Shown: positions 9,786-37,611 of the stretch, piece by piece | How positions within the stretch are numbered: position 1 is the stretch's first letter | How the letters are laid out: every line of letters starts with the position of its first letter | Assembly: GCA_907163375.1 (NCBI GenBank) | Contig: CAJQUW010006857.1 | Coordinates: forward strand, 208,501-272,500 | DNA: 64,000 bases | Direction of reading: 5' to 3' | DNA from: Prostheceraeus crozeri | Taxonomy: Eukaryota; Platyhelminthes; Polycladida; Euryleptidae | Made by a program: the position numbers and the translations under genes | The notes under the pieces: model-generated | Databases searched by the model: none | Told to the model about the DNA's origin: nothing | The model's input: only the letters and a program-made list of their open reading frames with translations

Positions 9786-10214
9786 ATGAACAACATAAAT
9801 GAGTTTTTAAAATTATATGGAACGCAAACTACGACAAATTTCGACCTAAAGAAAATCGCAAATGAATTAGGAATAAAGAATTTTCATGTTCTAATGAGAG
9901 ACGAATTACAATTCCTAAAAAATAAGCCAACAGGAACCTTCAGTTCCCGGAACAAAGTTCCATCAATAACTGTAAATTTCGTAACCAATCTTCACACTTC
10001 AGACCAAAAAGGCGTACATTGGTCAGCAGGCGTTAAAAATTATCAGCAGAACTATTATTTTGATTCATACGGTTTGCCCCCTACAAATGAAGTAACAGAA
10101 TTACTTGGAACGGGAACATACAATACGTTTCAAATTCAAACACCAGGCACTACCTATTGTGGACAATTATGTTTATACGTTTTGTACAAATTACAAAAAG
10201 AGTACCATTTCTAG
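9786..10214 (+). CDS. Adenain-like cysteine protease (Ulp1 fold)
   Basis: This 142-aa protein is the virion maturation protease of Polintons and adenoviruses. The catalytic set is visible: His78 in GVHWSAG, Asp93 in YYFDSYGLPP, Gln118 before GTTYCG, and Cys125 in the CGQLC motif. It should cleave capsid-associated precursors during assembly. The N-terminal YGTQTTTNFDLKKIANELGI is shared with the element 1 and 3 copies. A double-hairpin insert at 9933-9961 adds codons near residue 50. Compared with element 1, a one-base loss near 10196 shortens the C-terminus by about ten residues, leaving the catalytic core intact. It is transcribed away from the left TIR and converges on the integrase gene. 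Confidence 0.9.
   Translation: MNNINEFLKLYGTQTTTNFDLKKIANELGIKNFHVLMRDELQFLKNKPTGTFSSRNKVPSITVNFVTNLHTSDQKGVHWSAGVKNYQQNYYFDSYGLPPTNEVTELLGTGTYNTFQIQTPGTTYCGQLCLYVLYKLQKEYHF
9933..9961. repeat. Double-hairpin insert in protease gene
   Basis: GGAAC-CTTCA-GTTCC followed by GGAAC-AAA-GTTCC. It is absent from the element 3 protease at the same place, and the frame is kept. Confidence 0.7.
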
Positions 10215-10233
10215 ATATAATGTTAGAATTGAA

Positions 10234-10263
10234 CGAACCGTAGGTTCTATGGCTACGCCTAAT
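10234..10263. repeat. Double-hairpin insert, intergenic (30 bp)
   Basis: CGAACC-GTA-GGTTC, TA, TGGC-TAC-GCCT: two stems with 3-nt loops, in the convergent space between protease and integrase genes. Same layout as the coding-region copies. Confidence 0.75.
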
Positions 10264-10277
10264 AATAATAATGATAA

Positions 10278-10364
10278 TTAAAAATCACTTCGTTGTAATT
10301 CATTTTGATAAAATCGGCCTCTGATATCTTCATCATCTAAATCTTTGATTTCGTAAGTAATCGG
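10278..10364 (-). pseudogene. Former C-terminal tail of the integrase protein
   Basis: The frame continues past the TGA that ends the integrase at 10365. It encodes a tail similar to the element 1 and 3 integrases (PITYEI-DLD-E-I-GRFY-NEL) up to TAA at 10278-10280. Element 1 has Tyr at the stop position. The stop thus removes about 27 residues, unless it is read through. Confidence 0.65.
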
Positions 10365-11594
10365 TCAACTTTGATTTATTTTAGAAATTTCAAATATCTC
10401 TTTCGTCCAGTATCCGACGAAGCCTTTTTCAAATTTATTCTTATATTTAAATATTCTAACTCTATCTCCAATTTTAAATTTCGGCTTAAGTTTCTGCAAA
10501 TTCGGATTACTCTCATTCAAATTATTATTCTCGAATATTTTTTTTCTTATCAAATCAGGGTCGACAGAAGCATTCTTTGGAGTTTCTTCAATACCAGAAT
10601 GAACTTTATTATTGTACTCTTCTACAATTCCTGGTAATATCTTCAACCATTTCTGATTTCTTTGCTCAGTAAATTTCTTGAATAATTTATTTTTTAACGA
10701 CCGATTGAATCTTTCTATCACTACAGCTTTTCCAGCGTTTTCAGTTGAATAAACAGTTTCAAATAGTGGCTGAACGTTTCGGTTATAAAATTCCGACCCT
10801 TTATCAACAAACAATTTCCTTGGCTTTCTATTACTTTCTTTAAAGATTTCTTCAAACGCATATTTAACTGATAGACCACTTTTATTTTTTGAAGGCTTTA
10901 CCCAAGCGTATCGTGTATATGAATCTATAACGGTCAATGCGTATTTGTAGTCCCTTTCATTCGGCATATGAATAAGATCTGCACTCCAAATATCATCTTT
11001 ATTAAATACTTTTACTTTCAATAAATATTTAGGCCTTCTGTATTCTTTATGAATTTCAGACGCGTAGGTTCGAGCGTTGCTCTCAGAGTTATTAGTTCGA
11101 GCGTTGCTCTCAGACAGCTTAGCTGTCGTTTCATTTAAACCCTGTCCGAATAATATTTTAGCTTGTAAAGCTTTCTTAACAAACATTCTTTCAATTTTTT
11201 CTCTAAATGTTGGATTTTGAATACTATCTAATTCTTGAATCATCTTCTTATCAGCTGCATGTCGAGAACTTAGATCATGATTTCGATAAGCTAAATCATG
11301 CCTGTAAGCTGCGGCATCTACTTTATTTATTGGTTCTTCACCTGGTTTCGGATTATTATTCTCATCTAGTCTTATATCTAATCGAGTTCCTGGACCGGTA
11401 TATGAATGACCAGGAAGATGTTTTTCTTTCGAATATTTACTCCAAATAAATCCAGGAAAGTTTTCTAATGTTTTTTGTATGTCACCTCCAATATGCTGAC
11501 AATTTGAGTTTTCATTTTTGTTTAATAGGTAATTCAATAAATCTAAATTAGAAATTTTTAATTTAATTAAATTTTCGGAATTTGTAGAATTCAT
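10365..11594 (-). CDS. Fused phospholipase A2-like domain plus retroviral-type integrase
   Basis: One 409-aa frame holds two domains. Residues 60-120 resemble the parvovirus VP1/adintovirus PLA2 domain: the calcium loop YTGPGT, then RHDLAY with His99-Asp100, then RHAADK. Residues 185-409 are a DDE integrase: Asp206 in WSADL, Asp264 in FVDKGSEF and Glu294 in VIERFNR, then an SH3-like tail (KFKIGDRVRIFKYK). The D-to-E gap is 29 residues, shorter than the usual 35. No HHCC zinc-binding domain is visible. PLA2 normally serves membrane escape of virions and integrase inserts the DNA, so a fusion is odd unless the protein is cleaved, perhaps by the element protease (inference). The linker (151-180) carries hairpin inserts. 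Confidence 0.9.
   Translation of the reverse strand: MNSTNSENLIKLKISNLDLLNYLLNKNENSNCQHIGGDIQKTLENFPGFIWSKYSKEKHLPGHSYTGPGTRLDIRLDENNNPKPGEEPINKVDAAAYRHDLAYRNHDLSSRHAADKKMIQELDSIQNPTFREKIERMFVKKALQAKILFGQGLNETTAKLSESNARTNNSESNARTYASEIHKEYRRPKYLLKVKVFNKDDIWSADLIHMPNERDYKYALTVIDSYTRYAWVKPSKNKSGLSVKYAFEEIFKESNRKPRKLFVDKGSEFYNRNVQPLFETVYSTENAGKAVVIERFNRSLKNKLFKKFTEQRNQKWLKILPGIVEEYNNKVHSGIEETPKNASVDPDLIRKKIFENNNLNESNPNLQKLKPKFKIGDRVRIFKYKNKFEKGFVGYWTKEIFEISKINQS
11071..11135. repeat. Tandem hairpin inserts in the PLA2-integrase linker
   Basis: CGAGC-GTT-GCTC occurs twice, followed by CAGC-TTA-GCTG. Elements 1 and 3 have a shorter linker without these units. In protein they give the repeat SESNART, and the frame is preserved. 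Confidence 0.7.
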
Positions 11595-11643
11595 TTTAAA
11601 AGATAAAAAAAATTTAAAAGATATAATAAATGTTTTACCTAAT

Positions 11644-11702
11644 GGAACTTTGTTCAGAGGCTTTAGCCGATCGGACCAAAGGTCCTGAGGTTATTACCGA
11701 AT
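11644..11702. repeat. Two double-hairpin units between integrase and pX genes
   Basis: Unit 1 is GGAAC-TTT-GTTC, AGA, GGCT-TTA-GCC. Unit 2 is GGACC-AAA-GGTCC, TGA, GGTT-ATT-ACC. In element 3 the flanking DNA (TTTTACCTA then ATCATACTAGG) is continuous, so about 59 bp were inserted. Confidence 0.85.
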
Positions 11703-12171
11703 CATACTAGGACTTAGATATATTCCAGAACCATCTTTAGTTTCTTTAATTTCAATTAAATCATCAACATTGTGGAGAATATTTTTAAGAACTCGTTTTC
11801 CTTCATCAACTAATTTTAATTTACTAATAAAATTATCTACTACTCCTTCACCCCTAGCAACTTTCTCTAACTCTCTATTATGTCGTTTTTGTTCTTCTAA
11901 TGCTGCCTTCTCTGATTTATTTTTATTTACTGCTGGGACAATACCAGCTGTCCCACCTGCAACACTTCCTGCAGCTGCTATGCCACCTATTATTAGGGGA
12001 ATTAATGGGAGAATTCTGCCATTCTTTTTTTCTTGTAATTGAATATTCTCTATCATTGGTTTACTTATGTAATACTTTTTTTGTTAATCGTAATAGTTTT
12101 AGGGGTATTTTTGTCAACAATATTACGTAATTTTAATTCAACAGTTTTATTATTACTTTTCGCTTGCGACA
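11694..12171 (-). CDS. pX-like virion core protein (frameshifted near 12076)
   Basis: The main frame (12056-11694, 120 aa) has a hydrophobic Gly/Ala segment at residues 15-43 (LPLIPLIIGGIAAAGSVAGG) after a basic start, then a charged helix. This pattern recalls adenovirus/adintovirus core protein X, which is basic and ends in a hydrophobic stretch; the identification is by pattern only. In element 1 the frame extends upstream. Here the ATG at 12171 is in another frame because one base is missing near 12076, so the N-terminal 38 or so codons are disconnected. It lies between capsid and integrase genes and reads the same way. Confidence 0.6.
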
Positions 12172-12204
12172 TTTTTAATAAAAAAATTTTAAATTAGGAA
12201 TTTT

Positions 12205-12302
12205 TAATCTATTCTAGTTATGAAAAAATTTTAATCTATTCTAGTTATGAAAAAATTATAAGTTAAGAATTTTTAATCTATTCTAGTTATGAAAAAAATT
12301 TT
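12205..12302. repeat. Three tandem copies of TTTTAATCTATTCTAGTTATGAAAAA
   Basis: A unit of about 27-40 bp is repeated three times between the capsid stop and the pX start. Elements 1 and 3 lack it. Confidence 0.8.
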
Positions 12303-12304
12303 AA

Positions 12305-13639
12305 TTAACTTATCCTTACCATCTTTCCATGAAGAATTTCAATAGAATATTTTACATCTTCTAGCAATAAACCATAAGCCATCAATGAAGTTGTAGAATC
12401 TTTCTTTTCAATATTAATTGTTACATCACAACCATTTTTAATAATATCTTCAGATTGTGCACTTAAATCGAAACAGAAAATTGGATATAAATGTCTCCAA
12501 TCTCCAGGAGTTAATTGTGGTTCAACTCCAAATTCTATACAAAGATTTCGATAAGAATCATATCCTTCCATAAATTGATTATTGGTATCATCGAATCTGA
12601 ATGGATCAATTGGATATCGGGTTTGATTTAATGAAACTTGTAAACTTCGAATTGTATTAATATGGAAGAGATTATTGTTCTTATCAAAACTTGGAGAATT
12701 ATTTATTTGAAAAGTTAGTAATAAATATCTTGGTGTATTCGCAGTTCTAGTAAAATGCCAGTTAAATCTTTGTTCGGAAAAAGTTACTGAACTAGCAGTA
12801 CGCTTTAGAAAATTTACTGGAATTGGTTTGTTAGTATTTAATCTTTTTGCAATAGCTGTTTCAACCTCTAAACTGGGAGTAATATGCTTAATCCACCATT
12901 CAAGTCTATCAATTTTTAAATATGCTTTTTTCCCAGTCTTACCAAAAAAGATTAATTCATTATTTGCTGTACGATGAATTATTAATTTAAATTTTAATTG
13001 ATATGATATTTTATCATAATCTAAATATCCGAATAATGGAGACAATGACCAATTAACTGTCTGTTTACTTTTCTTGTTAAATTCACGTCTTTCTTTATAT
13101 GCATCATTATTTGTTTTATTTAAATGTTTTGCAATATTTTCTACATCTTTCGCAATTCCTGCGGCATCTGTTCCAGCGTAAGTTAAATCATCAACAATTA
13201 TACCATCATTAGTATCAGGAAACCAACCTTCGATTTCATGCTTTTTATTATTTTCACCATTTGTTATAAATCTAAGCATTGTATCAATTACACCTGGAGA
13301 ATCACTTATTGTTTCTATATTTTGAGTTGCAACATCTAAACGCATTTGTGTAAATAATCTTGGAAAAAAATTATTCTCTAATGCAATATTATCGGTTTCT
13401 GGTAATGGTGTTGTAAAATTAGCATCACTATATAAAGAATATTCACAATGTAAAAACGAATCAGGTAAATATATATAACTCTGCTGATTATCAACTTCAA
13501 AAATTAAATCACCTCCAGTATTTACTCTACTGGAAGATCCGGGATTCATAGCAATTCTTATATAGTCATTCTTTTTTTGATTATTACTGACGAACGGAGG
13601 ATCGTCTAATCCAAATTTATTTTCGATAAGCGAAGACAT
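12305..13639 (-). CDS. Major capsid protein (double jelly-roll, hexon-like)
   Basis: This 444-aa protein is the Polinton major capsid protein. The N-terminal part has the family pattern NPGSSSRVNTGGDLIFEVDNQQSY, then a strand-rich first barrel and a conserved ALENNFFPRLFTQMRLDV segment followed by IETISD. The second barrel covers roughly residues 215-420. Length fits double jelly-roll capsid proteins. The gene is open from ATG to TAA with no lesion, and it is the best preserved of the three capsid copies here. It should trimerise to build the icosahedral shell with the penton-like protein at 22389-23177. Confidence 0.9.
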   Translation of the reverse strand: MSSLIENKFGLDDPPFVSNNQKKNDYIRIAMNPGSSSRVNTGGDLIFEVDNQQSYIYLPDSFLHCEYSLYSDANFTTPLPETDNIALENNFFPRLFTQMRLDVATQNIETISDSPGVIDTMLRFITNGENNKKHEIEGWFPDTNDGIIVDDLTYAGTDAAGIAKDVENIAKHLNKTNNDAYKERREFNKKSKQTVNWSLSPLFGYLDYDKISYQLKFKLIIHRTANNELIFFGKTGKKAYLKIDRLEWWIKHITPSLEVETAIAKRLNTNKPIPVNFLKRTASSVTFSEQRFNWHFTRTANTPRYLLLTFQINNSPSFDKNNNLFHINTIRSLQVSLNQTRYPIDPFRFDDTNNQFMEGYDSYRNLCIEFGVEPQLTPGDWRHLYPIFCFDLSAQSEDIIKNGCDVTINIEKKDSTTSLMAYGLLLEDVKYSIEILHGKMVRIS

Positions 13640-13734
13640 TTTTATAAAAAATAATTTGACTTTTTGTTTTTCTCAAACACAGAAAAAATTCTGCTAAAAT
13701 AAATTTACTAAAAAAATTTTACTAAAATATAACT

Positions 13735-14343
13735 TTAGAATTTTGCTAGACCAGCTCCGCTACAGCTTTGCTGGTTAGACCGAAGGTTGCTGCTCACGCC
13801 ATTTCCTCTTATTTCTTCAATTGAACGAACCGTAGGTTCAATTGAACGAACCGTAGGTTCGATTGAACGTTTTATGGCTACGCCTGATTTCTTCTTATGT
13901 TTACTATCAGACGGAGCTCCGCTCCTCAAGGTTTCCCCAACAGCTATGTTAGCAATTTTGTTTTTTGTTTCCTCTGAAAGTTTTTTTAAATTTTTTAGTT
14001 CTTCGGAATCATTCCTAAGTTTACGAATAGCTTCTAGTTGTTTTAATTCGTTTTGAGACTAGACAGCATTTGATATTGCACTAGCTGTACTACCTATAGC
14101 AGCTGCTCCTTTTGCGGCAGATGTAATCAAATCTTTATTATTTTTAATTAAGTTAACGATACTACCAATACCAGAGAAGATCCCAGCTCCTTCCGTGTGA
14201 ACGGCACCTGCGGTGCCTAGGAACTTTTGTGTTCCGACTGTTTCTCTATTATCATAATGATAAACAGGATTCATACGTGGTTCATGAGCAATTTTTTGAT
14301 TTGAAGCAAAATGTTTAAGATTGTGTTTATAAATTATAGGCAT
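13735..14343 (-). CDS. Small Gly/Ala-rich virion protein (possible membrane-active, VI-like)
   Basis: The start at 14343 is conserved in elements 1 and 3. The N-terminus is MPIIYKHNLKHFAS; residues 50-92 form a Gly/Ala/Ile-rich amphipathic segment (IFSGIGSIVNLIKNN...AAKGAAAIGSTASAI), then a charged helix. Position and composition recall the membrane-lytic minor proteins of adenovirus-like viruses (inference). A TAG at 14059-14061 replaces a Lys codon present in element 1, after which the frame stays open to 13735. Hairpin inserts lie in frame at 14202-14238 and in the C-terminal part, where they create the RSIEPTV repeat. Confidence 0.6.
13747..13926. repeat. Cluster of hairpin inserts in the 3' end of the small virion gene
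   Basis: Contains CAGC-TTT-GCTG, GACC-GAA-GGTT, two copies of GAACC-GTA-GGTTC, GGC-TAC-GCC and, at 13913-13926, GGAGC-TCC-GCTCC. The same gene end in element 3 (37000-37060) is compact and lacks all of these. Confidence 0.8.
14202..14238. repeat. Double-hairpin insert in the small virion gene
   Basis: GGCACC-TGC-GGTGCC, TA, GGAAC-TTTTGT-GTTCC: two stems in frame, adding about 12 residues (GTQKFLGTAGAV) that are absent from element 1. Confidence 0.75.
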
Positions 14344-14383
14344 TTTTTAGGATTAAATTTGACTTTTGAGAAAAAATATTTAC

Positions 14384-14452
14384 GATCGGCTAAAGCCTCT
14401 GAACAAAGTTCTATTGGTTAGTAGTTAGTAACCTGAGGAGCTTCGCTCCGAT
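14384..14452. repeat. Double-hairpin units between small virion and fibre genes
   Basis: GGC-TAA-AGCC, GAAC-AAA-GTTC, then GGAGC-TTC-GCTCC, in the gene gap. Related units sit at the same place in elements 1 (28210-28298) and 3 (37518-37611), so insertion here predates their divergence. Confidence 0.8.
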
Positions 14453-15339
14453 TAAGATTTACGTTTGTGAATGGACAACAACTTCGAGATAACTTTATTA
14501 ATTGACTGTTGCACTTTATCTATTGCGTCAAGCAGCGTGTGATGTACTTTAATTTCTTTTCTATTAACTTGCATTTTCTGCTGATTAATCTTCAATGCCG
14601 TTTTAAGAGCATTTAACTTAATTTTAAGAACATCTAATTGTCTTTTAACAGAATCTAACTGTTCTTTATTTTCTTTAGAGTTTTCTTGTAAATTTTTCTT
14701 TAATTCATTTTCTAAATTGATTTTAAGAGTTTTCATTTTATCAACTCTTTGATTAAGTGAGTTTACTACATTTATTATTCTATTCATCTTTTTCATTTGT
14801 TGAGTAATTTTAGAACTCAATTCATCAACACTTTTTTGGAATGTAGTTTGTAACTGCTTTAAATTTTTTTTAATTCTTTCAGGTAGATTTTCTATTTCAT
14901 CTTCTAATTGTTCTTTTAACATTTTTATCTGATGTTTATTTTTAATTACAGCAGATTTTAAATTTAAAGAAAGTAATATTAAAATTTTTGAATGTTCAGA
15001 AATCTTTTTAAAAAGTTTTGCTATATCTGCTTCTAGCTCTCTATCCTTTTTATCAAGTTTTAATAATTTTTCGTTTAATGATTTGTCATTAAGTTTAAGC
15101 AACTTCAATTCATTCATCAGTGGAGCCAAAACATCGTTTATATATTTTTCTTTTAAATCATTGATTTGTGTATCAACATATTGTTTATTTGTTAACTCTG
15201 TATTTTGTTGCGGAAGAATAGAAAGATGCAATGGACCAGATAAAACGTCTCCAGTTTTCATGATATAATTTTCTATCTCTATTTCTAATTCACGATTATT
15301 CGGGATATATGCACCTCCACCGACATTTGGTAACATCAT
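14452..15339 (-). CDS. Fibre-like coiled-coil virion protein
   Basis: A 295-aa protein. It opens with MMLPNVGGGAYIPNN and a segment resembling phage tail-fibre repeats (GDVLSGPLHL..., then LTNKQYVDTQINDL). From about residue 60 to the end it is heptad-rich, highly charged coiled coil. It is likely a trimeric, elongated virion or attachment protein (inference from fold signals, not from a named family). The gene is intact here and broken in elements 1 and 3. Its start is divergent from the gene at 15384, so the 45-bp AT-rich gap probably holds both promoters. Confidence 0.7.
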   Translation of the reverse strand: MMLPNVGGGAYIPNNRELEIEIENYIMKTGDVLSGPLHLSILPQQNTELTNKQYVDTQINDLKEKYINDVLAPLMNELKLLKLNDKSLNEKLLKLDKKDRELEADIAKLFKKISEHSKILILLSLNLKSAVIKNKHQIKMLKEQLEDEIENLPERIKKNLKQLQTTFQKSVDELSSKITQQMKKMNRIINVVNSLNQRVDKMKTLKINLENELKKNLQENSKENKEQLDSVKRQLDVLKIKLNALKTALKINQQKMQVNRKEIKVHHTLLDAIDKVQQSINKVISKLLSIHKRKS

Positions 15340-15383
15340 TTTTTAACAATGAAAAAATAAATTTTTTTCTAATAAAAAAAAAA

Positions 15384-16697
15384 ATGGAAACCCCAAATTT
15401 AAAAAAATTATATTCGTCCGCATCATCCTGTTCTTCTTATTCGACGAGATCAACGGGATTTGAAAATAAATGCTTTGATAATAATAATAATAATAATCCA
15501 TGTATAGATGTTAATCTTTTGTTTCAATTACAAGCCGAAATATTTAGAGAACAGACTAAAGGTTTACCTTCTATAGAAACTAACTATTGTTTATTTCCAG
15601 GAGACCCGTTTATAAAATTTATGGAGATTGTAAGCAAATATAATGATGTAGCTTATGTTGAATTAAATAAAGAAAATATGGTTATAATAGGTCATAATAA
15701 TGTTTTCGGATTTATTAGAGCAGTTTTGCCGATTAGTAATACTGATTGGATAGAAAATAAAATTATTAATTATATCAATATTAAAGAATTAGTTAAAAAA
15801 TTAAAATCTTTTTCCAAAGAAAAAATAAGATTATTTGTTGATGAACAAAATCAATATAACATTCACATAGAGAGTAAAAAACATAATGAAGAATTATTAT
15901 GTCAAGTTTATTATAGAGACACAATTTATAAACAAGAAACATTAGAAATGCCCCAAAGATATGATGATGATACGTATATAGGATTATATTCCAACTTAAA
16001 TATTAATTTATTAAAATCTTATATAAATGGTTTAGCTCAACAAGAGAAAATTTATATGTGGACTACACCTTATACTATTAACAATGACCATAATCATAAT
16101 AAACGAACCGAAGGTTCTAGGGCTTTGCCCGATCTTAAAGAATCTTATGATAATAATGATAATAATATAGATGATAATAATATAGATGATGATAATATAG
16201 ATGATGATTCAGAAACATCTGAAAATGGTGTAAATGGTAAAAAAGATTATAAAAAGATTAGTAATTATAAAAATTTATCTAAATTTCATTTTCTTACAAT
16301 TGAAAATAATAATGATGGTATAGTTGAAGATACTGTTAGACAACTATGTGTCGGGTCTACAAAATTTAAATTAGGATTTACATCTAATCAATTTAAAATT
16401 TTATCATCTTTAATAAAAACTAAAAGTGATTCAGATTATAGTGGTGTTATTAAATTTTCCAAAAGAGAACAAAGACCAATATTTTTCTCTATTATATTAT
16501 TATCAGATAAGAAATGTAATTTAGAATTAGATATTCCAATAAGAGAATGGTATCCAATCCCAAAAAGTGTAATTTATGATGATGATGAAGAATCAATTTA
16601 TGATGATGAAGAATCAATTTATGATGATGAAGAATCAATAGTTAGTGAAAATAAATTTAAATTATCTTTTGATAAAACATTATATGATGAAACTTAA
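15384..16697 (+). CDS. Unknown protein with possible sliding-clamp-like halves
   Basis: Start chosen at METPNL (15384), after an A-rich leader. The 437-aa protein has a Ser/Asn-rich N-terminus. A segment with the feel of a PCNA domain follows (FIKFMEIVSKYNDVAYVEL, then INIKELVKKLKSFSKEKIRL), then an Asp/Asn-rich spacer with one 10-residue hairpin insert (RTEGSRALPD). A second alpha/beta segment is FKLGFTSNQFKILSSLI...LELDIPI, and the end carries YDDEESI repeats. A clamp next to polB would make sense, but the call is weak and needs structure prediction. Elements 1 and 3 have an unrelated 110-aa gene here. Confidence 0.45.
   Translation: METPNLKKLYSSASSCSSYSTRSTGFENKCFDNNNNNNPCIDVNLLFQLQAEIFREQTKGLPSIETNYCLFPGDPFIKFMEIVSKYNDVAYVELNKENMVIIGHNNVFGFIRAVLPISNTDWIENKIINYINIKELVKKLKSFSKEKIRLFVDEQNQYNIHIESKKHNEELLCQVYYRDTIYKQETLEMPQRYDDDTYIGLYSNLNINLLKSYINGLAQQEKIYMWTTPYTINNDHNHNKRTEGSRALPDLKESYDNNDNNIDDNNIDDDNIDDDSETSENGVNGKKDYKKISNYKNLSKFHFLTIENNNDGIVEDTVRQLCVGSTKFKLGFTSNQFKILSSLIKTKSDSDYSGVIKFSKREQRPIFFSIILLSDKKCNLELDIPIREWYPIPKSVIYDDDEESIYDDEESIYDDEESIVSENKFKLSFDKTLYDET
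16104..16133. repeat. Double-hairpin insert, in frame (30 bp)
   Basis: C, GAACC-GAA-GGTTC, TA, GGGC-TTT-GCCC, GAT. Encodes RTEGSRALPD within the low-complexity spacer of the 15384-16697 protein. Confidence 0.85.
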
Positions 16698-16750
16698 TAT
16701 GATAAAACTTAATATGATAAAACTTAATGCGATTAAACTTAATATGATAA
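16681..16750. repeat. 17-bp tandem repeat AATATGATAAAACTT at gene 3' end
   Basis: About four imperfect copies start at the stop codon of the preceding gene and run downstream. It probably grew by slippage. Confidence 0.75.
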
Positions 16751-16869
16751 AGAAAAAAAAACTAAAGAACGTGTAATATATAATAATATAAAATAACACT
16801 CAAGTCCTTGATATTAAAATGTTTATATCTAAAATTAAAACACAAATTTTTTCTTTAAAAATTAAAAAA

Positions 16870-19800
16870 ATGGAAAATACCAAGTTTTATTGTAACTTAT
16901 GTAAAAAAAAGTTGCAAACAAAAAGAAGTTATCAATCTCATTTAAATAGTAAATTGCATTTACAAAATGTAGAACGAGTTGATGAAGGAAATATATTAAA
17001 ATTAAATAGTTATAAAAACTATCTAGAAACATTGTCTACTGATATAAAAGTTAAAATAATGTTTGATGATTATTCACATTCGGAATATAAAAAAGTTTTT
17101 AATAGTGAAGATGAGACCCTACAAACCGAAGGTTCTAGGGCTTGGCCCGTACCAGATGGAAGATATTTATTTAGCGATACAGATGAATTTGATGAAGCTG
17201 AACGAAACGATGAAGCGGTAACAGATATAAAATATTTATTTAATGAATCTGTTGAACATAATGAAACCGATGAAACTTTTTATAATGTATTAAAAAACTT
17301 TTTCAAAATATTTAAGAAATCTTTCAAATGTTATATGAATGTAGAAGTACTTTATACAAAAAATGGACCTGATGGAATTCCTGAAGAAATAATACAAGGA
17401 CATTTTACAAATTCACAAGAAATTCATAATGTAAATGATATACAACTCATATTTGAATCGATGATACTTAAATTAGAAAATTGTATAATTGAAGCCCAGT
17501 TACGTGAATCTGGTTGGAGATTTGTTAAAATACTATCTAAGAAAATAGTAATTGATGAATATAAAAATAATACTGGTGGTAGTTATGTTCCTTTGCCTTT
17601 CAGTTCACCACAAATAATCAACATAAAAAATGAAGATGATTATTGTTTTCTGTGGAGTATTATAGCACATTTACATCCTGCAAAATATCACAAAGAAAGA
17701 CTAAGTCATTACAATAAAGAAGAATACATAAATGAATTTGATCTTTCTGATGGCTTAGATGAATTTCCATATGATTATAATAGGTTAAAAAAGTTTCATA
17801 AAAAGAATAAAAATTTAATAGAAGTAAATGTTTTTGAATTAAATGTGAATTACGTTTCTATTGGTAAAATTACTCCACTTTACTGAGATTCAAAAAAATT
17901 TTATTTGAATAATAAAAATTTATGTCAATCAGAAATAGTATATAATGATAGGGGAAATTACATGCATCATAATATTTTTTACCAAGGAAATATAATATGT
18001 ACTGAAAAATTTGAAATTATAAAAACACTATCACCAATAATGATTAGTCATAATAATTATAAAGGACGTAATTATAATTATGATTATGATACCGATTATT
18101 TATCTTTATCTTTAGAATATCAACAAAAATTACAAAATTTAAATGAAATTTTACAAAAATGTAAAACAGATTATCAACAACAAACAAAAATATTAGTACA
18201 AGAATATGGCCATAAATATCAAAATAAGATAGAAACGATTCAAAAATTAAATGAAGACAATAAAGAATTAAATAATGAAGAAAATGAAACCAATCAAAAA
18301 ATAAATGAATCTTTAAAAAAATGTCTACAACAATATAAAGAACAATATGATAAAGAATATAGTTATCAGTTACAAATATTAAATCAAACTTTTCATCGAA
18401 ATACATTTAATCTTACAAAAGAAATTGATGAAACACATGAAATATATAAAGATAAATTTGAAAAACTAGAACAGACAAAACAGCCAGCACAAGCGAATAT
18501 ATTATATTATCAGGGTCATTTTATATTGTGTAAAGATGTTTCTATATTCACAAAAACTTCAGATAATGCTAATTTTCCTTGTCTCCAATGTATGACGAGC
18601 TTTAGAACTAAAGAAGAAATGAATAGACATATGGAGAATTGCCAACAAAATGAAGCAGTCAGGAACACATTTCCTAAAGATGATTATTTAGAATATAATA
18701 AATGGTATTTTAAAAATAAAGTACCCTTTACTATTTATTGTGATTTCGAAGCATATAGTGTTAATATAACACAAAATCAAACGGAAAGTTCCAGGGCTTC
18801 ACCCGATTCTGAAAATGATAATTCTGGAAAAAGTGCGCCTGAACAAAGGAAAGAAAAATATTTATTTGAACAAAAACCATTATGTTGGGGAATGTACATT
18901 CATTCAAATTATCCTGAATTATTTAAATCAGAATATTTTCAATACTATGGTGAAGATAGTTCAGAAATGTTTACAAAGAAAGTAGAAGAATTACAAAATT
19001 ATTTTTCACAATTGCTTGAAACAAATATTCCAATGATGCCATTAACAGAAAAAGAAAAATTAAATTTTATTAATGAAACAAAATGTTATTACTGTGGAAA
19101 AGAATTTACAAAAAATTATAAAAATGGCAAAGGTAGATATCTTGATAAGGTAAAAGATCATGATCATCTAAATGGATTATATAGAGGTGCAGCACATAAT
19201 TCTTGTAATCTTAATGCTAATAAATTTAAATATAACTTTGTTCCTCTATATTTCTATAATGGTTCTAAATATGATTTCCATCTAGTAATGAAAGATTTAT
19301 TTTCATCTGAAAAATTACAACAACAACAAATAAATGTACTATGTAAAACAGAAGAAGAATATTTTTCAATGCAATTAGGTTGTATTAGAATTTTAGATGC
19401 ATTTAGATTTTTTACTCCTTATTCATTAGATGTTATGGGAAAAACTTTGAAATCTGAACAATGTAAAATATTAAATAAATATAATTTAAAACCTTTAAAA
19501 GGAATATTTCCGTATGAGTACATAGCCTGCGGCTCACAGTCGAAGACTGATATAACTGGAGATTTTAATTCTGTGAATAAAATTATGGAAGAAGAACAAC
19601 TTCCTCCAATAAATAAATTTAAATCAACATTAAAACAATCAAAATTATCTGACGAAGACTATGCAGAAGCTGAAAAGAATTGGAGAGAGTTAAATTGTAA
19701 AACAATGTATGATTATACAATGAAATATCTTCAGATAGATGTATTAATACTAGCTGATCTTTTCGAAAACTTTCGTGACATGTGTTTAGAATATTACGGA

Positions 19801-21377
19801 ATGGATCCATGTTATTGTTATTCTACACCAGGTTTAACATGGCTAGCAGGATTAAAACATACTGGTGTTCAAGCCGATGGCTCTAGGACAAAGTCCGTTA
19901 AACTTAAACATTATAAAGAAAATACATATGCTAAATTATTATTTTTTGAATCTGGAATTAGAGGTGGAGTTTCATCAGTTTTAGGTAATCGTTATGTACA
20001 GTGTTACAATAGAAAAGTAAATCCTGATGATTATGGAATACTGAAACCTTTATCTCCAGAAGAAAGTGATCAGTTTATAAAATTGTTTAATCAAAATATA
20101 GAAGGACTTATATCAAATGAAGATAGTCAAGCAGCAGTTGATGAAATCATGAGAGAAAACTATTTGTTATATTATGATTTTAATAGCTTATATTCTTCTT
20201 GCATGATACAAGAATTACCAACAGGTGAAATGTCATGGTGTAATATTCTTGATTATCAAAAAACATATGATGGAAATTATAATCATGGTTATATATATGA
20301 AGTTGATTTAGTATACCTGATGAAATAAAAGATAAAACAAAATATTTTCCTTTCTGTCCCGAAAACAAAATTCCTAATATAGAAGATTTTTCAGATTATC
20401 AAAAATCTTTAATTCCTAAAAAATACAGACCAACAAAAAAACTTATGTTAACACAAAGCAATAAAGGAAAGTATGTTGTTGAAGGAAGAATGCTAGATTG
20501 GTATTTAGATCATGGAATGATTCTCACCAAAATACATCGAAAACTATTTTATCAAAAATCTAGGTGGTTAAAAAATTATATAGAGTTCAATATTGAAAAA
20601 CGCAAAATAGCTAAAAGAAATAAAGATGATTTTGGAAACGTGTTCTTCAAATTAATGAATAATGCATTTTATGATAAGACTTTAGAAAATGTGCGTAATA
20701 GACAAAATATTGAAATAGTTTATGATAAAGATAGGTTTCAAAATTTAACAAGGAAACCTACATATAAAAGAACTACTAGATTTAGTGATGAACTATGTGC
20801 TGTACATTTATGTCGAATCAGCGTAAAACATGATAAGTTTAATTTCATTGGTTTCACTATATTAGAATTAGCTAAACTATTTATGTATAGATTTATATAT
20901 GATTATTTAGCACCTGCTTATGGCAAAAACTATAAATTACACTTTACAGATACCGATTCTGTTTTCTTAGAGTTAACAATACCGTATAATTCTACATTTG
21001 ATGAAGAAATTAATAAAATAAAAGATATCATTCATCCTTCTGATTTATGTAAAGTAAAAGATGAATTAGAAGGAAATGAAGATTTCATAACAGAAGCTAT
21101 ATTTTTAAAATCTAAATGTTACTGTTATGATACAACTAATAATATTAAAACACATAAAACATTAAAAGGAATTTCAAAGGCATCAGTGGCTAATCAAATA
21201 ACATTTCAAGATTATAAAAATGCATTATTTAATAATGAAATAAAAACAGCATGTAATTATAGACTTAATTCAAAAAAACATAAAATGTATTTAAAAGAAG
21301 AACATAAATTAGCATTAGATCCATTTGATGATAAAAGAAAAATTTTACCTGATGGAATAACTACTGAACCTTTTTAA
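16870..21377 (+). CDS. polB: Zinc-finger plus protein-primed DNA polymerase B (two breaks)
   Basis: The start at 16870 (METNTKFYC-like MENTKFYCNLC) is conserved in all copies. Order of domains: C2H2 finger (YCNLC...H...H); LWSIIAHLHPAKYHKERLSHY region; charged coiled coil; second finger FPCLQC...H...C near 18571; ExoI YCDFEAY near 18735; a CYYCGKEF...DHDH...RGAAH-SCN treble-clef insert near 19084-19215; ExoII YNGSKYDF; ExoIII YLQIDVLIL; palm motif A DFNSLYSS near 20177; motif B NNAFYDKT near 20656, with Asp where Gly is usual; motif C TDTDS near 20950. It replicates the element by terminal-protein priming. A TGA at 17884-17886 and a one-base loss near 20313 interrupt the frame. Three hairpin inserts lie in frame. 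Confidence 0.93.
17122..17151. repeat. Double-hairpin insert, in frame (30 bp)
   Basis: AAACC-GAA-GGTT, CTA, GGGC-TTG-GCCC. Encodes QTEGSRAWPV in the N-terminal region of polB. Element 3 has a shorter sequence at this point. Confidence 0.85.
18778..18807. repeat. Double-hairpin insert, in frame (30 bp)
   Basis: AAAC-GGAAA-GTT, CCA, GGGC-TTC-ACCC (one mismatch). It adds exactly ten codons (QTESSRASPD) just after the ExoI motif; elements 1 and 3 read straight through. Confidence 0.85.
19522..19551. repeat. Double-hairpin insert, in frame (30 bp)
   Basis: AGCC-TGC-GGCT, CAC, AGTC-GAA-GACT. Adds ten codons (IACGSQSKTD) between FPYEY and the TGD that directly follows it in element 3. Confidence 0.88.
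19870..19899. repeat. Double-hairpin insert, in frame (30 bp)
   Basis: AGCC-GAT-GGCT, CTA, GGAC-AAA-GTCC. Adds ten codons (QADGSRTKSV) after LKHTGV. GTT is present on both sides, a possible 3-bp target duplication. Confidence 0.88.
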
Positions 21378-21495
21378 TTTTCTAATTTCTAAGATAGACA
21401 AATTTGATATATACATAAAATAAAAAATAATAAAATATTATAACACTATATTTGTATATTTTTTATCACTCGGTAAACAAATGTTCTATCGACTT

Positions 21496-22263
21496 TCAGT
21501 CAGAGAACAATTGTTCGATAACTCTATCATGAATTTTTTTATCAATATTAATTGTAATGAAGCCATAATCTTTTGACCAAGCATTGTTACACGATTGTTT
21601 AAATTCATCTTTATTTCTTACACATAAATCTCTTAACAAATCACTTAAGTTTCTTGCATTTATTTCAAATAGTATAAATATATTTGCATTCTTTCTAATA
21701 ACACTTCCGTTTAATGAATACATACTTTGTGTTAAATAAAAAACACTACAGTTATTATGTCTACCTCTTGTGAAATAATTTCTCTGAACTGACTGATTTC
21801 TATCATTAACACAATCATCAAAAATTACACAATGTTTCATTGTTTTATCTAGTTTACTAGGATCTTGCATATTACCACTATCATCTATTAATTGTATCTT
21901 TATATGCTTATTTTTATTGAATTCTACTAACTGATTATTTTTTGTTGCTTCTTCACACCACGAACTTATTTCTTCTTCATCTTCAGATTTTTCATATTCT
22001 TTGAATAATGAAGCAATTGCTGTTTATTTAAGATTATTGTCAAATCCATATTTTAAAAATTGATAGAAGGGTTGTTCTGCCGTTGTTGTATAAATTATAA
22101 GATTGTTATAATCCAAAAAATTTGGAGTCGTTAAAATTTTAAATAATAGATATGTTTTTCCACATCCTGATCTTCCACAAATAACTGACAAAACTTTATT
22201 AGATAAATTTGGATGATGATTAAATTTAAGTTTTTTTTTATTTAATGGAGGTAGTTCACTCAT
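21496..22263 (-). CDS. A32-like DNA packaging ATPase (one in-frame stop)
   Basis: About 255 codons from MSELPPLNKKKL. Walker A is CGRSGCGKTY at about residues 29-38. Walker B is CVIFDDCVND, followed by the family pattern YFTRGRHNN...FYLTQS. It belongs to the FtsK/HerA class of genome-packaging motors of Polintons and nucleocytoplasmic viruses and should pump DNA into capsids. A TAA at 22024-22026 splits the frame after residue 79; the rest stays in the same frame. The gene converges with polB, as in elements 1 and 3. Confidence 0.9.
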
Positions 22264-22330
22264 TTTTTAATAAAAAAAATCATTTTTATTTTATTTTTAT
22301 TTTAAAAGAAGAAGAAAATTAAACTTCTCT

Positions 22331-22401
22331 AGCTTCGCGTGGGAGTTTATACCTCTCGAACGGGAGTTTATACCTCCCGAACGGGAGTTTATACCTCTCG
22401 A
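22331..22401. repeat. Three 21-bp tandem hairpin units at the penton gene stop
   Basis: GGGAGTTTATACCTCYCGAAC is repeated three times, preceded by AGC-TTC-GCG. Element 3 goes directly from CTTCTCTA to ACCAAAAGATC. On the minus strand the inserted unit itself supplies the last codons and TAA, restoring the same ending (VREV) as without the insert. Confidence 0.85.
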
Positions 22402-23177
22402 ACCAAAAGATCTATCATAATCTCTTCACCTCCAAGATTTATTTCTTGTCCTTTCTCATCAGTGATTCTAATGTTAATGTTGTTAATAGTTTTTCTGGTA
22501 ATAGGGAAATATATTAATGTTTGTGGAATTACATTTAATCTATAACCAATGGGTACAGTAAAAGCTGGAAAACTGAATATTAAATTTGATAATTTACCAT
22601 TTATATATCCTCCTTCAATAATGTCACAATGTACAACAATTGAATTTATTTCAGTTATCTTTGGAATCTTCTCACCTAAATGATAACCTTGACTATAGGT
22701 TTGTTTATTAAATCCTAATAGCTTTGACAATGATCTATCATGATTAAAATCAACTTGATGATTTTCGTCTAAAGTAAGAGAAACTTTATTAACTGCCGGT
22801 TCAACTGCAAAATGTAATTGTTTCTTATCTTTAAATGGTATACCTAAATGTCTCTTAATTTCATTTAATATTGTTTCAACTTCGTAAGAACCAGGAAGAA
22901 AAGTTAGTATTTTCCATGTTTTGCCTTTATCAGTAGAATATCTAAATTGATCATTCACATCTTTGATAACGTTTTGAATAGTGTTAAATGTAGAGAAACT
23001 AGTCAATGCAATTTGATAATTTTTATTTTGTTCCAAATGTAGAATGGGTTCTAAATTACAAGTGTGTGATGAAGTAGTTGTTATAATTTTTAACGTCGTA
23101 CTAAATTTTGATGAACCCAAAATCTCTGTCAAATTTTCTAAATGATTATTAATTTTGTCTAAATCTGCTGAACACAT
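22389..23177 (-). CDS. Penton-like minor capsid protein
   Basis: A 262-aa protein matching the single jelly-roll minor capsid (penton) proteins of Polintons. Its N-terminal half has strands with SFSTFNTIQNV and TFLPGSYEV. The C-terminal half has GYRLNVIPQTLIYFPITRKTINNINIRITDEKG, then INLGGEEIMIDLLV, the characteristic last strands. It would occupy the fivefold vertices. The frame is intact. It follows the ATPase start by about 120 bp on the same strand. Confidence 0.82.
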   Translation of the reverse strand: MCSADLDKINNHLENLTEILGSSKFSTTLKIITTTSSHTCNLEPILHLEQNKNYQIALTSFSTFNTIQNVIKDVNDQFRYSTDKGKTWKILTFLPGSYEVETILNEIKRHLGIPFKDKKQLHFAVEPAVNKVSLTLDENHQVDFNHDRSLSKLLGFNKQTYSQGYHLGEKIPKITEINSIVVHCDIIEGGYINGKLSNLIFSFPAFTVPIGYRLNVIPQTLIYFPITRKTINNINIRITDEKGQEINLGGEEIMIDLLVREV

Positions 23178-23241
23178 TTTTTAGTTAAAATGTTAAATAA
23201 ATATTTTTTTAAATAAAAATTAGAAACAACATATTTCAGCT

Positions 23242-23280
23242 ACGGGGGAAGCCCTGGAGGACATCAGAGATGTCCAGTTA
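23242..23280. repeat. Double-hairpin insert at a gene 3' end
   Basis: GGGG-GAA-GCCC, TGGA, GGACATC-AGA-GATGTCC. Element 3 is continuous here. The insert changes the last codons and supplies the stop of the 23264-24084 gene. Confidence 0.8.
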
Positions 23281-24084: not shown

Positions 24085-24205
24085 TTTTAAAATATAATAT
24101 TTGAATTTTGTGGTAACATTGGAATACGGCAAAAACATTTTACTGAACAAATTATTTTTTTATTGCTTTGTTGTGTGACATCTTTTCGTTTAAAGTTTTC
24201 TCGTT

Positions 24206-24934
24206 TTAAGTTTTGTTTAATAAAGTTTTGTTTAATAAAGTTTTGCTTAAATTTTCGCTTAAAGTTTTTAGCTCTTCTAAAAAAAATTTGTCATTTTCTT
24301 CATTAGAAATTTTACCACCAGTAAAAGTTTTACCATCACTAGAAATTTTGCCACCCTGTTTATTCTTATCATCAACTTTTTCTGACTGTAATTGAAATGA
24401 TATTTGATTTACTTCATTAGCTATTTGATCAAATTTTTCAATCTCATCTAACGTAATAACATTATCATCACATACTCTTTGAAAGTAGTAATGTAGTTTA
24501 TCATAGACTTCTTTAATATGTAAATGCTTAGTTTTTAATGATTTTCGTTTCTTAGTTATTAAAGATTTATCTAACATTGTAACAAGTGAAGTTGCAAAAA
24601 CACCCGTACCTGTTAAAGCTGTAGCAACTACTGGAATTAATAAAACACCTGAAGATATAACAATAGTGAGAGCGCCTAAACTTATTGTTAAGAATATGCC
24701 AATTCCTTGTGTTACATTCTTAACTTTAGTCCATCTCTTTCTTCATTTTTTATAATGCTCTAATCTTAATAATAATTGAGATTCCTTATCTTTCATATAG
24801 CGTACTCTATCTTTGTGTTTTTCAATGTTCATTTTTTCAATGTTAATCTTTTCAATGTCCATTAAAGTAGAACTACGTTCATATGATAACGAAGGATATA
24901 TTCTTGCGGTTTCTTCCATTTTTGTTTCTTCCAT
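24206..24934 (-). CDS. Membrane/coiled-coil protein whose start lies in the TIR (one stop)
   Basis: The first 30 codons (MEETKMEETARIYPSLS) are part of the terminal repeat, so copies of this start occur at both element ends. A helical segment (IEKMNIEKHKDRVRYMK) is followed by a hydrophobic stretch in the 24580-24720 region, whose residues IGIFLTISLGALTIVISS and LIPVVATALTG suggest two membrane helices, then a charged helical tail. A TGA at 24743-24745 interrupts the frame where elements 1 and 3 have a sense codon. It is likely a virion or host-membrane protein (inference). Confidence 0.6.
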
Positions 24935-24984
24935 TTTTTAAAGAAATATTTTGAATAAATATTTTGAAAACAATCTTCTGAAAT

Positions 24985-28208: not shown

Positions 28209-28209
28209 T

Positions 28210-28298
28210 AGAACATTGTTCAGATGCTTTAGCCGATCGGACCAAAGGTCCTCAGGTTACTAACCTATAGAACCTTGTTCAGAGGCTTTAGCCGATCA
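28210..28298. repeat. Double-hairpin units in element 1
   Basis: GAAC-ATT-GTTC, AGAT, GGACC-AAA-GGTCC, GGTT-ACTA-ACC, GAAC-CTT-GTTC, GGCT-TTA-GCC. Same family as in element 2; the mirror copy is at 37518-37611. Confidence 0.85.
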
Positions 28299-32599: not shown

Positions 32600-32605
32600 A
32601 AGAAT
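32600..32605. repeat. 6-bp target-site duplication of element 3, left (AAGAAT)
   Basis: AAGAAT directly precedes AGTGTAGGGAATAAGACC and recurs at 54552-54557 directly after the inverted terminus. Confidence 0.9.
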
Positions 32606-33136
32606 AGTGTAGGGAATAAGACCGTTCCAGCACAGGACACAAAATTCTCAAATTTTTTCGTATTTAAAAGAACGACTAAATTTAAGAATTTTGGTCTTTT
32701 GTCAGGTTATGAAGACCAAAGTTCTTAAATTTAGGCGTTTTTAAAAATACTATGTTTTTGAGATTTTTTCAAAATCTTAAATTTTAGAATTATAATTTTT
32801 TTATCTCGAAAATCATGACCGTTCCAGGACACCGAAAACCATAAAAGTTAAGAATCTCAAATTTGAGAATTATAATTATTTTCTTGCTCAAATCATGACC
32901 GTTCCTGGACACAACATCAGAAAAGTTAAGAATCTCAAATTTGTGATTATGATTTTTTTCTTGCTCAAATCATGACCGTTCCAGGACACCGAACATCAGA
33001 AAAATTGGTAATTTTAGGAGTAGTTAAAATAGCCCTCAATTTTCCCTAAATTTATGAATTTTTAATCATTTTTATGCCCAAATCAGGTTAAGAACCCTCT
33101 AATTCATATTTAAAATAAGTCTAGGGGAAAAATATT
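32606..33136 (+). repeat. Element 3 left TIR with iterons
   Basis: Terminal GACCGTTCC...AGGACAC at 32630, then TGACCGTTCCAGGACACCG near 32816, TGACCGTTCCTGGACAC near 32896 and TGACCGTTCCAGGACACCG near 32971. Same architecture as element 2 with diverged sequence. Confidence 0.9.
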
Positions 33137-33145
33137 TCTTTAAAA

Positions 33146-34081: not shown

Positions 34082-34136
34082 GTTCTAATGATAATTTAGA
34101 AAATCAAGCGAAGCTGGCTAAAGCGCCACCTAAAGG

Positions 34137-35447: not shown

Positions 35448-35474
35448 TTTTAAAGATAAAATATAATAAATGTT

Positions 35475-35688
35475 TTACCTAATCATACTAGGACTTAGAT
35501 ATATTCCAGAACCATCTTTAGTTTCTTTAATTTCTATTAAATCATCAACATTGTGGAGAATGTTTTTAAGAACTCGTTTTCCTTCATCAACTAAATTTAA
35601 TTTACTAATAAAATTATCTACTATTCCTTCACCCCTAGCAACTTTCTCTAACTCTCTATTATGACGTTTTTGTTCTTCTAATGCTGCC
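35475..35688 (-). pseudogene. Element 3 pX-like protein, C-terminal part
   Basis: A deletion fuses the capsid gene (ending EDITKTG) to the pX gene at AALEEQK near 35688. This removes the capsid C-terminus and the pX hydrophobic segment, about 0.5 kb compared with element 1. Confidence 0.85.
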
Positions 35689-36867
35689 AGTCTTGGTAAT
35701 ATCTTCAGATTGTGCACTTAAATCGAAACAGACAACAGGATATAAATGTTTCCGATCTCCAGGAGTTAATTGTGTTTCAACTCCAAATTCTATACAATGG
35801 TTTCTATAAGCATCATATCCTTCCATAAATTGATTATTGGTATCATAGAATCTGAATGGATCAATTGGATATCGGGTTTGATTTAAAGAAACTTGTAAAC
35901 TTCGAATTGTATTAATATGAAAAAGATTGTTGTTCTTATCAAAACTTGGAGAATCATTTCTTTGAAAAGTTAGTAATAAATATCTTGGAGTATTCGAAGT
36001 TCTAGTAAAATGCCAGTTAAATGTTTGTTCAGAAAAAGTAACAGAACTAGCAGTACTGTTAGTATTTAATCTTTTTGCAATAGCTAATTCGACATCTAAG
36101 CTAGGAGTAATATGTTTTATCCACCATTCAAGTCTGTCAATTTTTAAATATGCTATTTTTCCAGTCTTACCATAAAAGATTAATTCATTATTTGCTGTGC
36201 GATGAATTATTAATTCAAATTTTAATTGATATGATATTTTGTCATAATCTAAATATCCGAATAATGGAGACAATAACCAATATACTGTCTGTTTGATTTT
36301 CTTGTTAAATTCATGTCTTTCTTTATATGCACTATTGCTTGCTTTATCTAAATGATTTGCAATATTTTCTACATTTTTCGCAATTCCTGCTGCATCTGTT
36401 CCAGCGTGAGTTAAATCATCAACAATTGTACCATCATTAGTATCAGGAAACCAACCTTCGATTTCATGCTTTTCATTATTTTCACCAATTGTTACTAATC
36501 TAAGTATTGTATCAATTACACTTGGAGAATCACTTATTGTTTCTATATTTTGAGTTGCAACATCTAAACGCATTTGTGTAAATAATCTTGGAAAGAAATT
36601 ATTCTCTAATGCAATATTATCGCTATCTGGTAATGGTGTTGTAAAATTGGCATCACTATATAAAGAATATTCACAGTGTAAAAAGGAATCAGGTAAATAT
36701 AAATAACTTTGCTGATTATCAACTTCAAATATTAAATCTCCTCCAGTATTTACTCTACTAGAAGATCCGGGATTCATAGCAACTCTTATATAGTCATTCT
36801 TTTTTTGATTGTAACTGACGAACAGAGGATCGTCTCATCTAAACTTATTTTCGATAAGAGAAGACAC
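35689..36867 (-). pseudogene. Element 3 major capsid protein, truncated
   Basis: Homologous to 12305-13639. It has GTG instead of ATG at the start, as in element 1, a shift near 36838, and loss of the last 40 or so codons by the deletion at 35688. Confidence 0.9.
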
Positions 36868-36998
36868 TTTTATGAAAAATAATTTGACTTTTTAGTTTTC
36901 CTCACACACAGAAAAAAAATTCTCACACAGAAAAAAAAGTTCTCACATACAGAAAAAATATTTTCTTAGGTCCTTTCGAATATATTTTAGAATTTTGC

Positions 36999-37461
36999 TT
37001 AACCATTACCTCTTTTTTCTTCAATTGATTTCTTATGTTTACTCTCTGATAGAGTACCACTCCACAAGGTTTTACCTGTCACTGCTATGTTAGCAACTTT
37101 GCTTTTAGTTTCCTCTGAAAATTTTTTTAATTTTTTTAGTTCTTCAGAATCATTCTTAAGTTTACGAATAGTTTCTAGTTTTTTTAATTCGTTTTGAGAC
37201 TTAACAGCATTGGATATTGCACTAGCTGTACTACCTATAGCAGCTGCTCCTTTTGCAGCAGATGTAATCAAATCTTAATTATTTTTAATTAGGTTAACGA
37301 TGCTTCCTATATTATCAGTGATTCCAGAAAATATTCCAGCTCCTTCGTTTTTGAATAGTTTCTACATTGTTATAGTGGTAAACAGATTTCATAGATGGTT
37401 CATGTGCTATTTTTTTATTTGAAGCAAAATGTTTAAGATTGTGTTTATAAATTATAGGCAT
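36999..37461 (-). pseudogene. Element 3 small Gly/Ala-rich virion protein, broken
   Basis: Matches 28356-28836 including the stop before LITSAAKG. It is open from there to GNG and has a further deletion near 37350. Confidence 0.8.
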
Positions 37462-37517
37462 TTTTGAGGAATAAATTTGACTTTTGGGAAAAAATTATTA
37501 CGTTAATATTTACGTTT

Positions 37518-37611
37518 ATGATCGGCTAAAGCCTCTGAACAAGGTTCTATAGGTTAGTAACCTGAGGACCTTTGGTCCGATCGGCTAAAGCATCTGAACA
37601 ATGTTCTATCA
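37518..37611. repeat. Double-hairpin units in element 3
   Basis: Mirror of 28210-28298: GGC-TAA-AGCC, GAAC-AAG-GTTC, GGACC-TTT-GGTCC and GAAC-AAT-GTTC in the gap between small virion and fibre genes. Confidence 0.85.

Follow-up and report, generated by a model that had tools for sequence, protein, structure and literature searches.

Known hairpin elements and the present locus

Short GC-rich hairpin units, present sporadically in AT-rich DNA, are described for the double-hairpin elements of Allomyces mitochondria and the GC clusters (GC42) of yeast, the latter with short flanking repeats (AG or ACT) (PMC4478555, PMC2800124) and with hairpin merger and shuffling at one site (PMC4478555). These features are shared by a family of small double-hairpin inserts in a 64,000-nucleotide stretch of the polyclad flatworm Prostheceraeus crozeri (contig CAJQUW010006857.1, positions 208,501 to 272,500; the whole stretch is referred to as the window). 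Two adjacent GC-rich hairpins are found in both cases. Unlike the organellar, mostly intergenic elements, the units of the flatworm lie in nuclear-integrated Polintons, Polinton flanks being found at 70 of 70 sampled loci, and 13 of the 22 listed sites are genic. The feature is real, goes beyond chance and behaves as a family of very small mobile elements that reside within Polintons: near-identical units occur at different sites, the same sites are filled in some copies and empty in others, duplications of 0-3 bp (mostly 2-3 bp) accompany the inserts, and the sampled units are confined to Polinton DNA.

Rickettsia palindromic elements are imperfect palindromes of about 100-150 bp, unlike the two hairpins with 3-nt loops found here. 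Together with those of Wolbachia they share with the present units the in-frame insertion of palindromes at various positions, usually in unstructured regions of proteins (PMC2996958), and differ in being bacterial. The repetitive hairpin-forming elements of sponge mitochondria are likewise hairpin inserts, a few of which lie in protein genes without frameshift; they are organellar, and their inter-genomic mobility is stated to be not demonstrable there for want of population samples (PMC2800124). Repetitive extragenic palindromic (REP) elements, palindromes of 20-40 bp, also reach high copy number (PMC3733652). They differ in being prokaryotic and extragenic, and no transposase was found for the units here. 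REP elements themselves are moved by RAYT HUH transposases. As the first-pass annotation had supposed, no description of hairpin inserts in Polintons was found among the open-licence PMC papers listed; PMC5799277 deals with other hairpins. By kind, the units thus join the organellar double-hairpin and the bacterial in-frame palindromic elements, and to our knowledge the carrier and the setting are new.

Structure of the units and their occurrence in the window

Each unit consists of two GC-rich hairpins with 3-nt loops and is about 26-31 nt long within the AT-rich Polintons. The commonest, type A, reads C-GAACC-GAA-GGTTC-TA-GGGC-TTC-GCCC-G plus two bases; here a 2-nt spacer separates two hairpins, the first with a 5-bp and the second with a 4-bp stem, both having loops of 3 nt. 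Each strand bears one hairpin with a C-GAA-G triloop. Type B (stem GGAGC-GAA-GCTCC) and type D (AGCC-TGC-GGCT and AGTC-GAA-GACT) follow the same plan. In type E, the first hairpin is longer (GACATC-GGA-GATGTC) and the second is that of type A. A 24-bp form is present in polB of locus L043.

In alignment A2 (12 rows, chosen by eye), 82% of the stem cells pair, and sliding the structure by one column lowers this to 44-54%. The suggestion of compensatory stem change was borne out in part: two-sided changes occupy 12 cells of the 12 rows vs. a shuffled mean of 3.6, a value that none of 500 shuffles reached. Further pair types, however, are no more numerous in these hand-picked rows than in shuffles, 475 of 500 being as high. 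At site 19522, the stems AGCC/GGCT, AGCC/GGTT (with a G.T pair, L008) and AACC/GGTT (L039, L040, L044) form a series, in which AGCC/GGTT is the visible intermediate.

A strict scan for perfect stems found five units in the window vs. a mean of 0.23 and a maximum of 3 in 100 shuffled windows, which is the fair figure for enrichment. The same scan over 181,129 bases of window and loci gave 86 units of 16 kinds (mean 0.0 in three shuffled sets); this is not a density, since overlapping loci (L010/L011, L016/L017, L023-L025, L027/L028, L031/L032) were counted and 30 loci had been chosen for carrying type A. A loose scan admitting AT pairs returned 129 doubles in the window, 56 of them scoring at least 25 vs. 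20-31 in five shuffles; it was uninformative, and later work was therefore limited to GC-rich structures. The covariance model R1, built from 12 hand-picked units, gave 10 matches in the window at E < 1e-3, all within Polinton copies between 10234 and 37579, although nine of the ten are sequences used in building R1 and only 11672-11701 is new. If more degenerate candidates at 9933, 11099, 13826, 13905, 14203 and 23243 are included, there are about a dozen units or more, in agreement with the first-pass annotation. An Rfam gathering scan of the window gave no matches.

Self-alignment and repeats show three copies of Polintons in the window and part of another:

9058..24950, ends approximate: E1, the copy carrying most units (self-alignment, repeats, Pfam)
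about 26.4-32.6 kb: E2, inverted
about 33.8-42.5 kb and 46.07-53 kb: E3, split by a non-LTR (long terminal repeat) retrotransposon
below 9.06 kb: E0, an inverted piece including polB

The units and candidates in the window are as follows (ORF, open reading frame):

9933..9961, plus strand: degenerate double hairpin GGAACC..GGAAC from the stem scan, in a region unlike E2 and E3; not an R1 match
10234..10263, plus strand: noncoding 30-bp type-A-like unit; R1 36.4 bits (training row); L108 has a 29-bp insert about here relative to E2
11094..11127, minus strand: double-hairpin insert of 33 bp within the PLA2/integrase gene, next to a 27-bp coding tandem repeat; L106 has the empty site; duplication of 3 bp, GTT
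11672..11701, plus strand: noncoding unit, upstream of where the integrase gene starts; not used in training, R1 29.0 bits
13826..13888, plus strand: type-A-like unit, nested or duplicated, within a small ORF; R1 18.6 bits, E 0.028; a 63-bp gap vs. E2 and E3
14421..14450, minus strand: noncoding unit GGAGC-GAA-GCTCC / GGTTACTAACC; R1 28.8 bits (training row); 31-bp copy differences nearby
16104..16133, plus strand: type A unit in ORF 15309-16697, peptide RTEGSRALPD; R1 43 bits (training row); empty in L031 and L032
17122..17151, plus strand: type A unit in polB, within its N-terminal zinc-finger part, QTEGSRAWPV; R1 37.4 bits (training row); absent from E3 and E0, with a 39-bp unit in its place in some copies
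18778..18807, plus strand: polB unit of type A, peptide QTESSRASPD; E3 and E0 have the empty site; AT duplication
19522..19551, plus strand: type D unit in polB, IACGSQSKTD; empty in E3; 6 filled and 11 empty sequences
19870..19899, plus strand: unit in polB, QADGSRTKSV; empty in L004, L008, L039, L045, L049 and L050; GTT duplication
23243..23275, minus strand: noncoding type E-like unit; a 31-bp type A unit there in L030; empty in E3
28238..28267, plus strand: unit in E2; R1 27.5 bits (training row)
37550..37579, minus strand: orthologous unit in E3; R1 27.5 bits (training-row sequence); inverted repeat I3

A 27-bp coding tandem repeat at 11071-11125, variable in copy number (L109 is 54 bp longer), ends in a double hairpin. 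At 22320-22400 and in L030, CGGGAGTTTATACCTCCCGAA-like palindromes form a noncoding tandem array, which adjoins a 28-bp length difference.

Filled and empty sites

An all-against-all alignment of L002-L115 with pieces of the window gave 489 gap records of 18-70 bp, a table which shows gaps alone, so that sites occupied throughout would be missing, and which counts overlapping loci apart. About 22 positions of E1 show unit-like inserts for which a corresponding empty site is also found. The coding ones are 11094, 11479, 16131, 17116, 17218, 17251, 18775, 18822, 19146, 19521, 19560, 19866 and 20243; the noncoding ones are 9285, 9349/9427/9511, 9624, 10244, 11646, 14418, 14450, 22345 and 23240. 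Filled and empty counts range from 20 and 2 (18775) to 1 and 19 (19146). Some inserts were seen in a single copy, namely the 24-bp unit of L043 (1 filled, 19 empty), an antisense insert in L075 and one in L088 at 20243.

Nearly identical polB copies differ in their units. L007 and L008 are 99.70% identical over the 1,659 unit-free columns kept, and L003 and L004 are 99.58% identical; each pair differs at two unit sites. Type A or type E is found at 17116, 17251 and 23240 depending on the copy, and the noncoding terminal site 9624 holds inserts of 30, 31, 32, 38 or 39 bp. In a polB stretch scored in 22 copies (18778 was scored as well), sites 19521, 19563 and 19868 show pairwise all four combinations of presence and absence. 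The units are thus neither limited to orthologous positions without polymorphism nor as rare as in shuffled sequence. A 28-bp double hairpin (GGCTAAAGCC TCT GAACAAAGTTC) was also observed inserted at the noncoding E1 sites 11646 and 14450 in different copies.

Clean 30-bp insertion had been claimed for three sites; against E3 it holds for 18778 and 19522 but not for 19870. The 19870 insert is clean in comparison with L050, has mismatched flanks in comparison with L008 and is absent from a database polB reading HTGV-KLKHYKENT. E3 and E0 have at this site (41780-41820) a different AT-rich rearrangement of similar size.

Target duplications

Duplication was measured at 15 hand-picked sites with clear empty counterparts, some with a few flank mismatches. 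The duplicated or ambiguous bases number 2, 2, 2, 2, 3, 1, 0, 2, 2, 3, 3, 3, 3, 1 and 2, with a mean of 2.07. When these inserts were placed at random in E1, the mean was 0.70, and only 0.01% of 40,000 trials reached the observed sum (P = 0.0001). Short duplications of varying length would agree better with joining guided by microhomology than with the action of a single classical transposase. The record at 9086 is the 9285 target in the other orientation and was excluded from the duplication and frame tests; with this non-independent record, the mean over 16 sites is 2.06 (P 0.00015), and the frame comparison given below becomes 15/15 vs. 4/10 (P 0.0012). Miniature inverted-repeat transposable elements (MITEs) combine terminal inverted repeats with a target duplication of fixed length, and the 0-3 bp over the 15 sites do not conform to this.

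Reading frame and protein context

In-frame insertion in protein genes, a feature of the Rickettsia palindromic elements, is found here as well. The main insert length is divisible by three at 15/15 coding sites vs. 3/9 noncoding sites (Fisher P = 0.0006). The 15 coding sites are the 13 listed above plus 10753 and 11052, neither of which is a clear double hairpin; without them the comparison is 13/13 vs. 3/9 (P = 0.0011). The test excludes the small-ORF sites 13750-13840, whose coding status is unclear (lengths 18, 21, 30, 42 and 48), the AT-rich or tandem-repeat gaps at 9553, 9718, 9733, 14200, 16057, 16064, 16548, 16559, 17208 and 24919, and the composite or duplicate records at 11058, 11067, 11077, 11659, 16103, 17125, 17136, 17144, 17181, 17236 and 19530. 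Coding records not divisible by three are those of 29 bp at 17116 and of 47 bp at 16103, the latter coming from L023-L025, overlapping pieces of one place. Noncoding length variants include records of 28 and 30 bp at 11646 and of 29 bp at 9349.

Four of the six frames of type A contain no stop codon. The frame used, RTEGSRASPD, is the most hydrophilic of the four (mean Kyte-Doolittle value -1.85 vs. -0.41 to -0.64). In line with the shared frame noted in the first-pass annotation, the corresponding frame is used at nine sites in plus-strand genes, five of them in E1 (16104, 17122, 18778, 19522, 19870) and four in other copies (17218, 17251, 19560, 20243). The antisense insert of L075 (E1 position 18822) uses another open frame and reads GQALEPSV.

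Tolerance as surface loops, also proposed earlier, is consistent with an AlphaFold2 model of the database polB P0001 (mean predicted local distance difference test score 84.9, predicted template modelling score 0.80). In this predicted structure, all six polB sites touch coil, as do 41% of junctions, which gives a chance of about 0.005. Frame keeping together with loop placement suggests that insertion occurs in Polintons still selected for their proteins.

Distribution in the genome and carrier elements

In the assembly (2,048,925,868 bp, 14,165 contigs), the type A pattern GAACCnnnGGTTCnnGGnCnnnGnCC has 2,953 + 2,828 = 5,781 exact matches, and the reversed control has none. From 100 listed places, 70 were inspected, the first 30 and 40 picked by hand. 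All 70 lie in Polinton DNA, 69 with Polinton on both sides: 29/30 in the first set and, counted by units, 43/43 in the second. The exception, L026, has a Polinton match on its right side only. A share of type A outside Polintons above a few percent is therefore unlikely. The exact unit patterns had no match in the viral and prokaryotic contigs searched.

The carriers belong to the Polintons (Mavericks), as had been claimed, for they encode an rve integrase, a double-jelly-roll capsid protein and PolB. Pfam matches in the window include double-jelly-roll capsid proteins, zinc fingers, the rve integrase with a PLA2-like domain attached and, weakly, endonuclease VII; polB was assigned through its relatives, the nearest of which has PF03175. 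The integrase core and the phospholipase A2-like domain form a single ORF at 10365-11690 on the minus strand. The E1 polB frame (16819-20328) is broken by stop codons, and databases hold intact relatives. No homologues were found of ORF 15309-16697, the carrier of the 16104 unit. The Polinton terminal regions (9058-9649, 26440-27031, 32739-33014, 53994-56000) contain tandem repeats around GACCGTTCCAGGACACC, with a hairpin unit in some and not in others. The retrotransposon within E3 (42500-46070) is GC-rich, and a long GA microsatellite lies at 55085-55145.

Proposed mode of movement

With a probability of roughly 0.6, the units can be regarded as non-autonomous mobile double mini-hairpins which parasitise Polintons and move while Polinton DNA is single-stranded, being then subject to selection for loops and to reshuffling by recombination. 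The PolB of Polintons is expected to carry out strand-displacing replication. Movement would take place while Polinton DNA is single-stranded during this protein-primed process, when each single strand could fold into a pair of compact hairpins, of which the commonest have C-GNA-G triloops. A break, or a template switch relying on 2-3 bp of homology, might then allow a hairpin copy to be joined in. With 2 bp added to a unit of about 28 bp, the insert would measure 30 bp and keep the frame. Selection would subsequently retain the inserts at protein loops, and recombination among Polintons would reshuffle them. Single-stranded DNA mini-hairpins with GNA and GNNA loops are described as unusually stable and nuclease-resistant (PMC4686876). 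It is this stability, together with the expected strand displacement by PolB, that makes the single-stranded route the preferred one.

Several observations weigh against this interpretation. Duplication length is inconstant (0 at 17218; 1 at 16131 and 22345), unlike that of a classical transposase. No transposase, donor or RNA was identified in the analysis; HUH transposases were absent among the Pfam matches of 20 window ORFs, no search of the genome having been aimed at them. The 70 type A loci represent just eight sites, namely the terminal repeats (taken as one), 16104, 17116, 17218, 17251, 18778, 20243 and 23240, so that the 5,781 matches mostly mirror Polinton copy number and not thousands of transpositions. 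The sites 9349, 9427 and 9511 are tandem copies of one target, and the four-combination patterns can be explained by recombination alone. Single units fold just moderately better than shuffled DNA (z -1.0 to -2.3), and a GNA loop on one strand occurs in just 8 of 27 distinct hairpin cores (1/8 expected, P = 0.015, related rows), a weak excess. By eye, no such insert is present in the database polB proteins P0001-P0003 (58-72% identical) at the covered polB sites of the window. The search of viral contigs for polB relatives yielded none with P0001 alone and two (L116, L117) with alignment A3; these more distant relatives contain no unit.

A narrower form of the proposal, in which 30-bp single-stranded mini-hairpin parasites move only during Polinton replication, have spread through the Polinton population and have been shaped so as to do no harm within genes (they are mostly without stops, have lengths divisible by three and encode a flexible peptide), is put forward tentatively and seems somewhat doubtful.

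Alternative explanations

Recombination among Polintons is the main rival and probably contributes. According to this explanation, a few old hairpin insertions are being passed around by homologous recombination and gene conversion, with little or no transposition today. The four combinations at the three polB sites, the mixed unit types at one site and the restriction of type A to eight sites in the sample all favour it, and the GC clusters of yeast mitochondria are likewise described as exchanged by flanking recombination (PMC4478555). However, the single-copy inserts of L043, L075 and L088 still need insertion at some time, and an identical unit at several unrelated sites still needs past insertion. 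As the whole account, it is rather unlikely.

The units might also be functional Polinton signals for replication, packaging or transcription that are tolerated in genes, which would suit their structure, their abundance and, within the sample, their confinement to Polintons. The many sites empty in some copies, the interchangeable hairpins at one site, the variable orientation, and the related polB proteins without units make this improbable, although a signal role may hold for some units, the gap table being blind to sites filled in every copy. Of the two possibilities offered by the first-pass annotation, the tiny selfish element is supported by the unrelated sites, the empty sites, the near-identical copies that differ, the kept frame and the contact of all six polB inserts with loops, and the replication or packaging signal is not.

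It is very improbable that the units are host-wide repeats resembling MITEs or short interspersed nuclear elements which also landed in Polintons: short target duplications would suit such repeats, but none of the 70 sampled loci lies outside Polintons, and outside the Polintons of the window R1 gave no match at E < 1e-3. Equally poor is the prospect that local slippage or foldback mutation created the hairpins anew at each site, their likeness being convergence, for despite the tandem duplications of units or partial units at 11067, 13785 and 17208 and the templated foldback insertions reported in yeast (PMC11724301), an identical 26-mer recurs exactly at unrelated sites, which makes this origin hard to hold for type A, although some rare types could have arisen so.

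Significance

Organelles and intracellular bacteria contain hairpin elements of such size, whose movement has long been an open question. The related Polinton copies here are many (at least 40 scored polB copies and 1,239 first-look candidates) and have filled and empty sites, which makes insertion rate, target choice, duplication length and frame selection measurable. Dependence on Polinton replication is likewise open to testing. If the proposal of mobile mini-hairpins is true, Polintons would have parasites of their own, which rewrite Polinton proteins about ten residues at a time.

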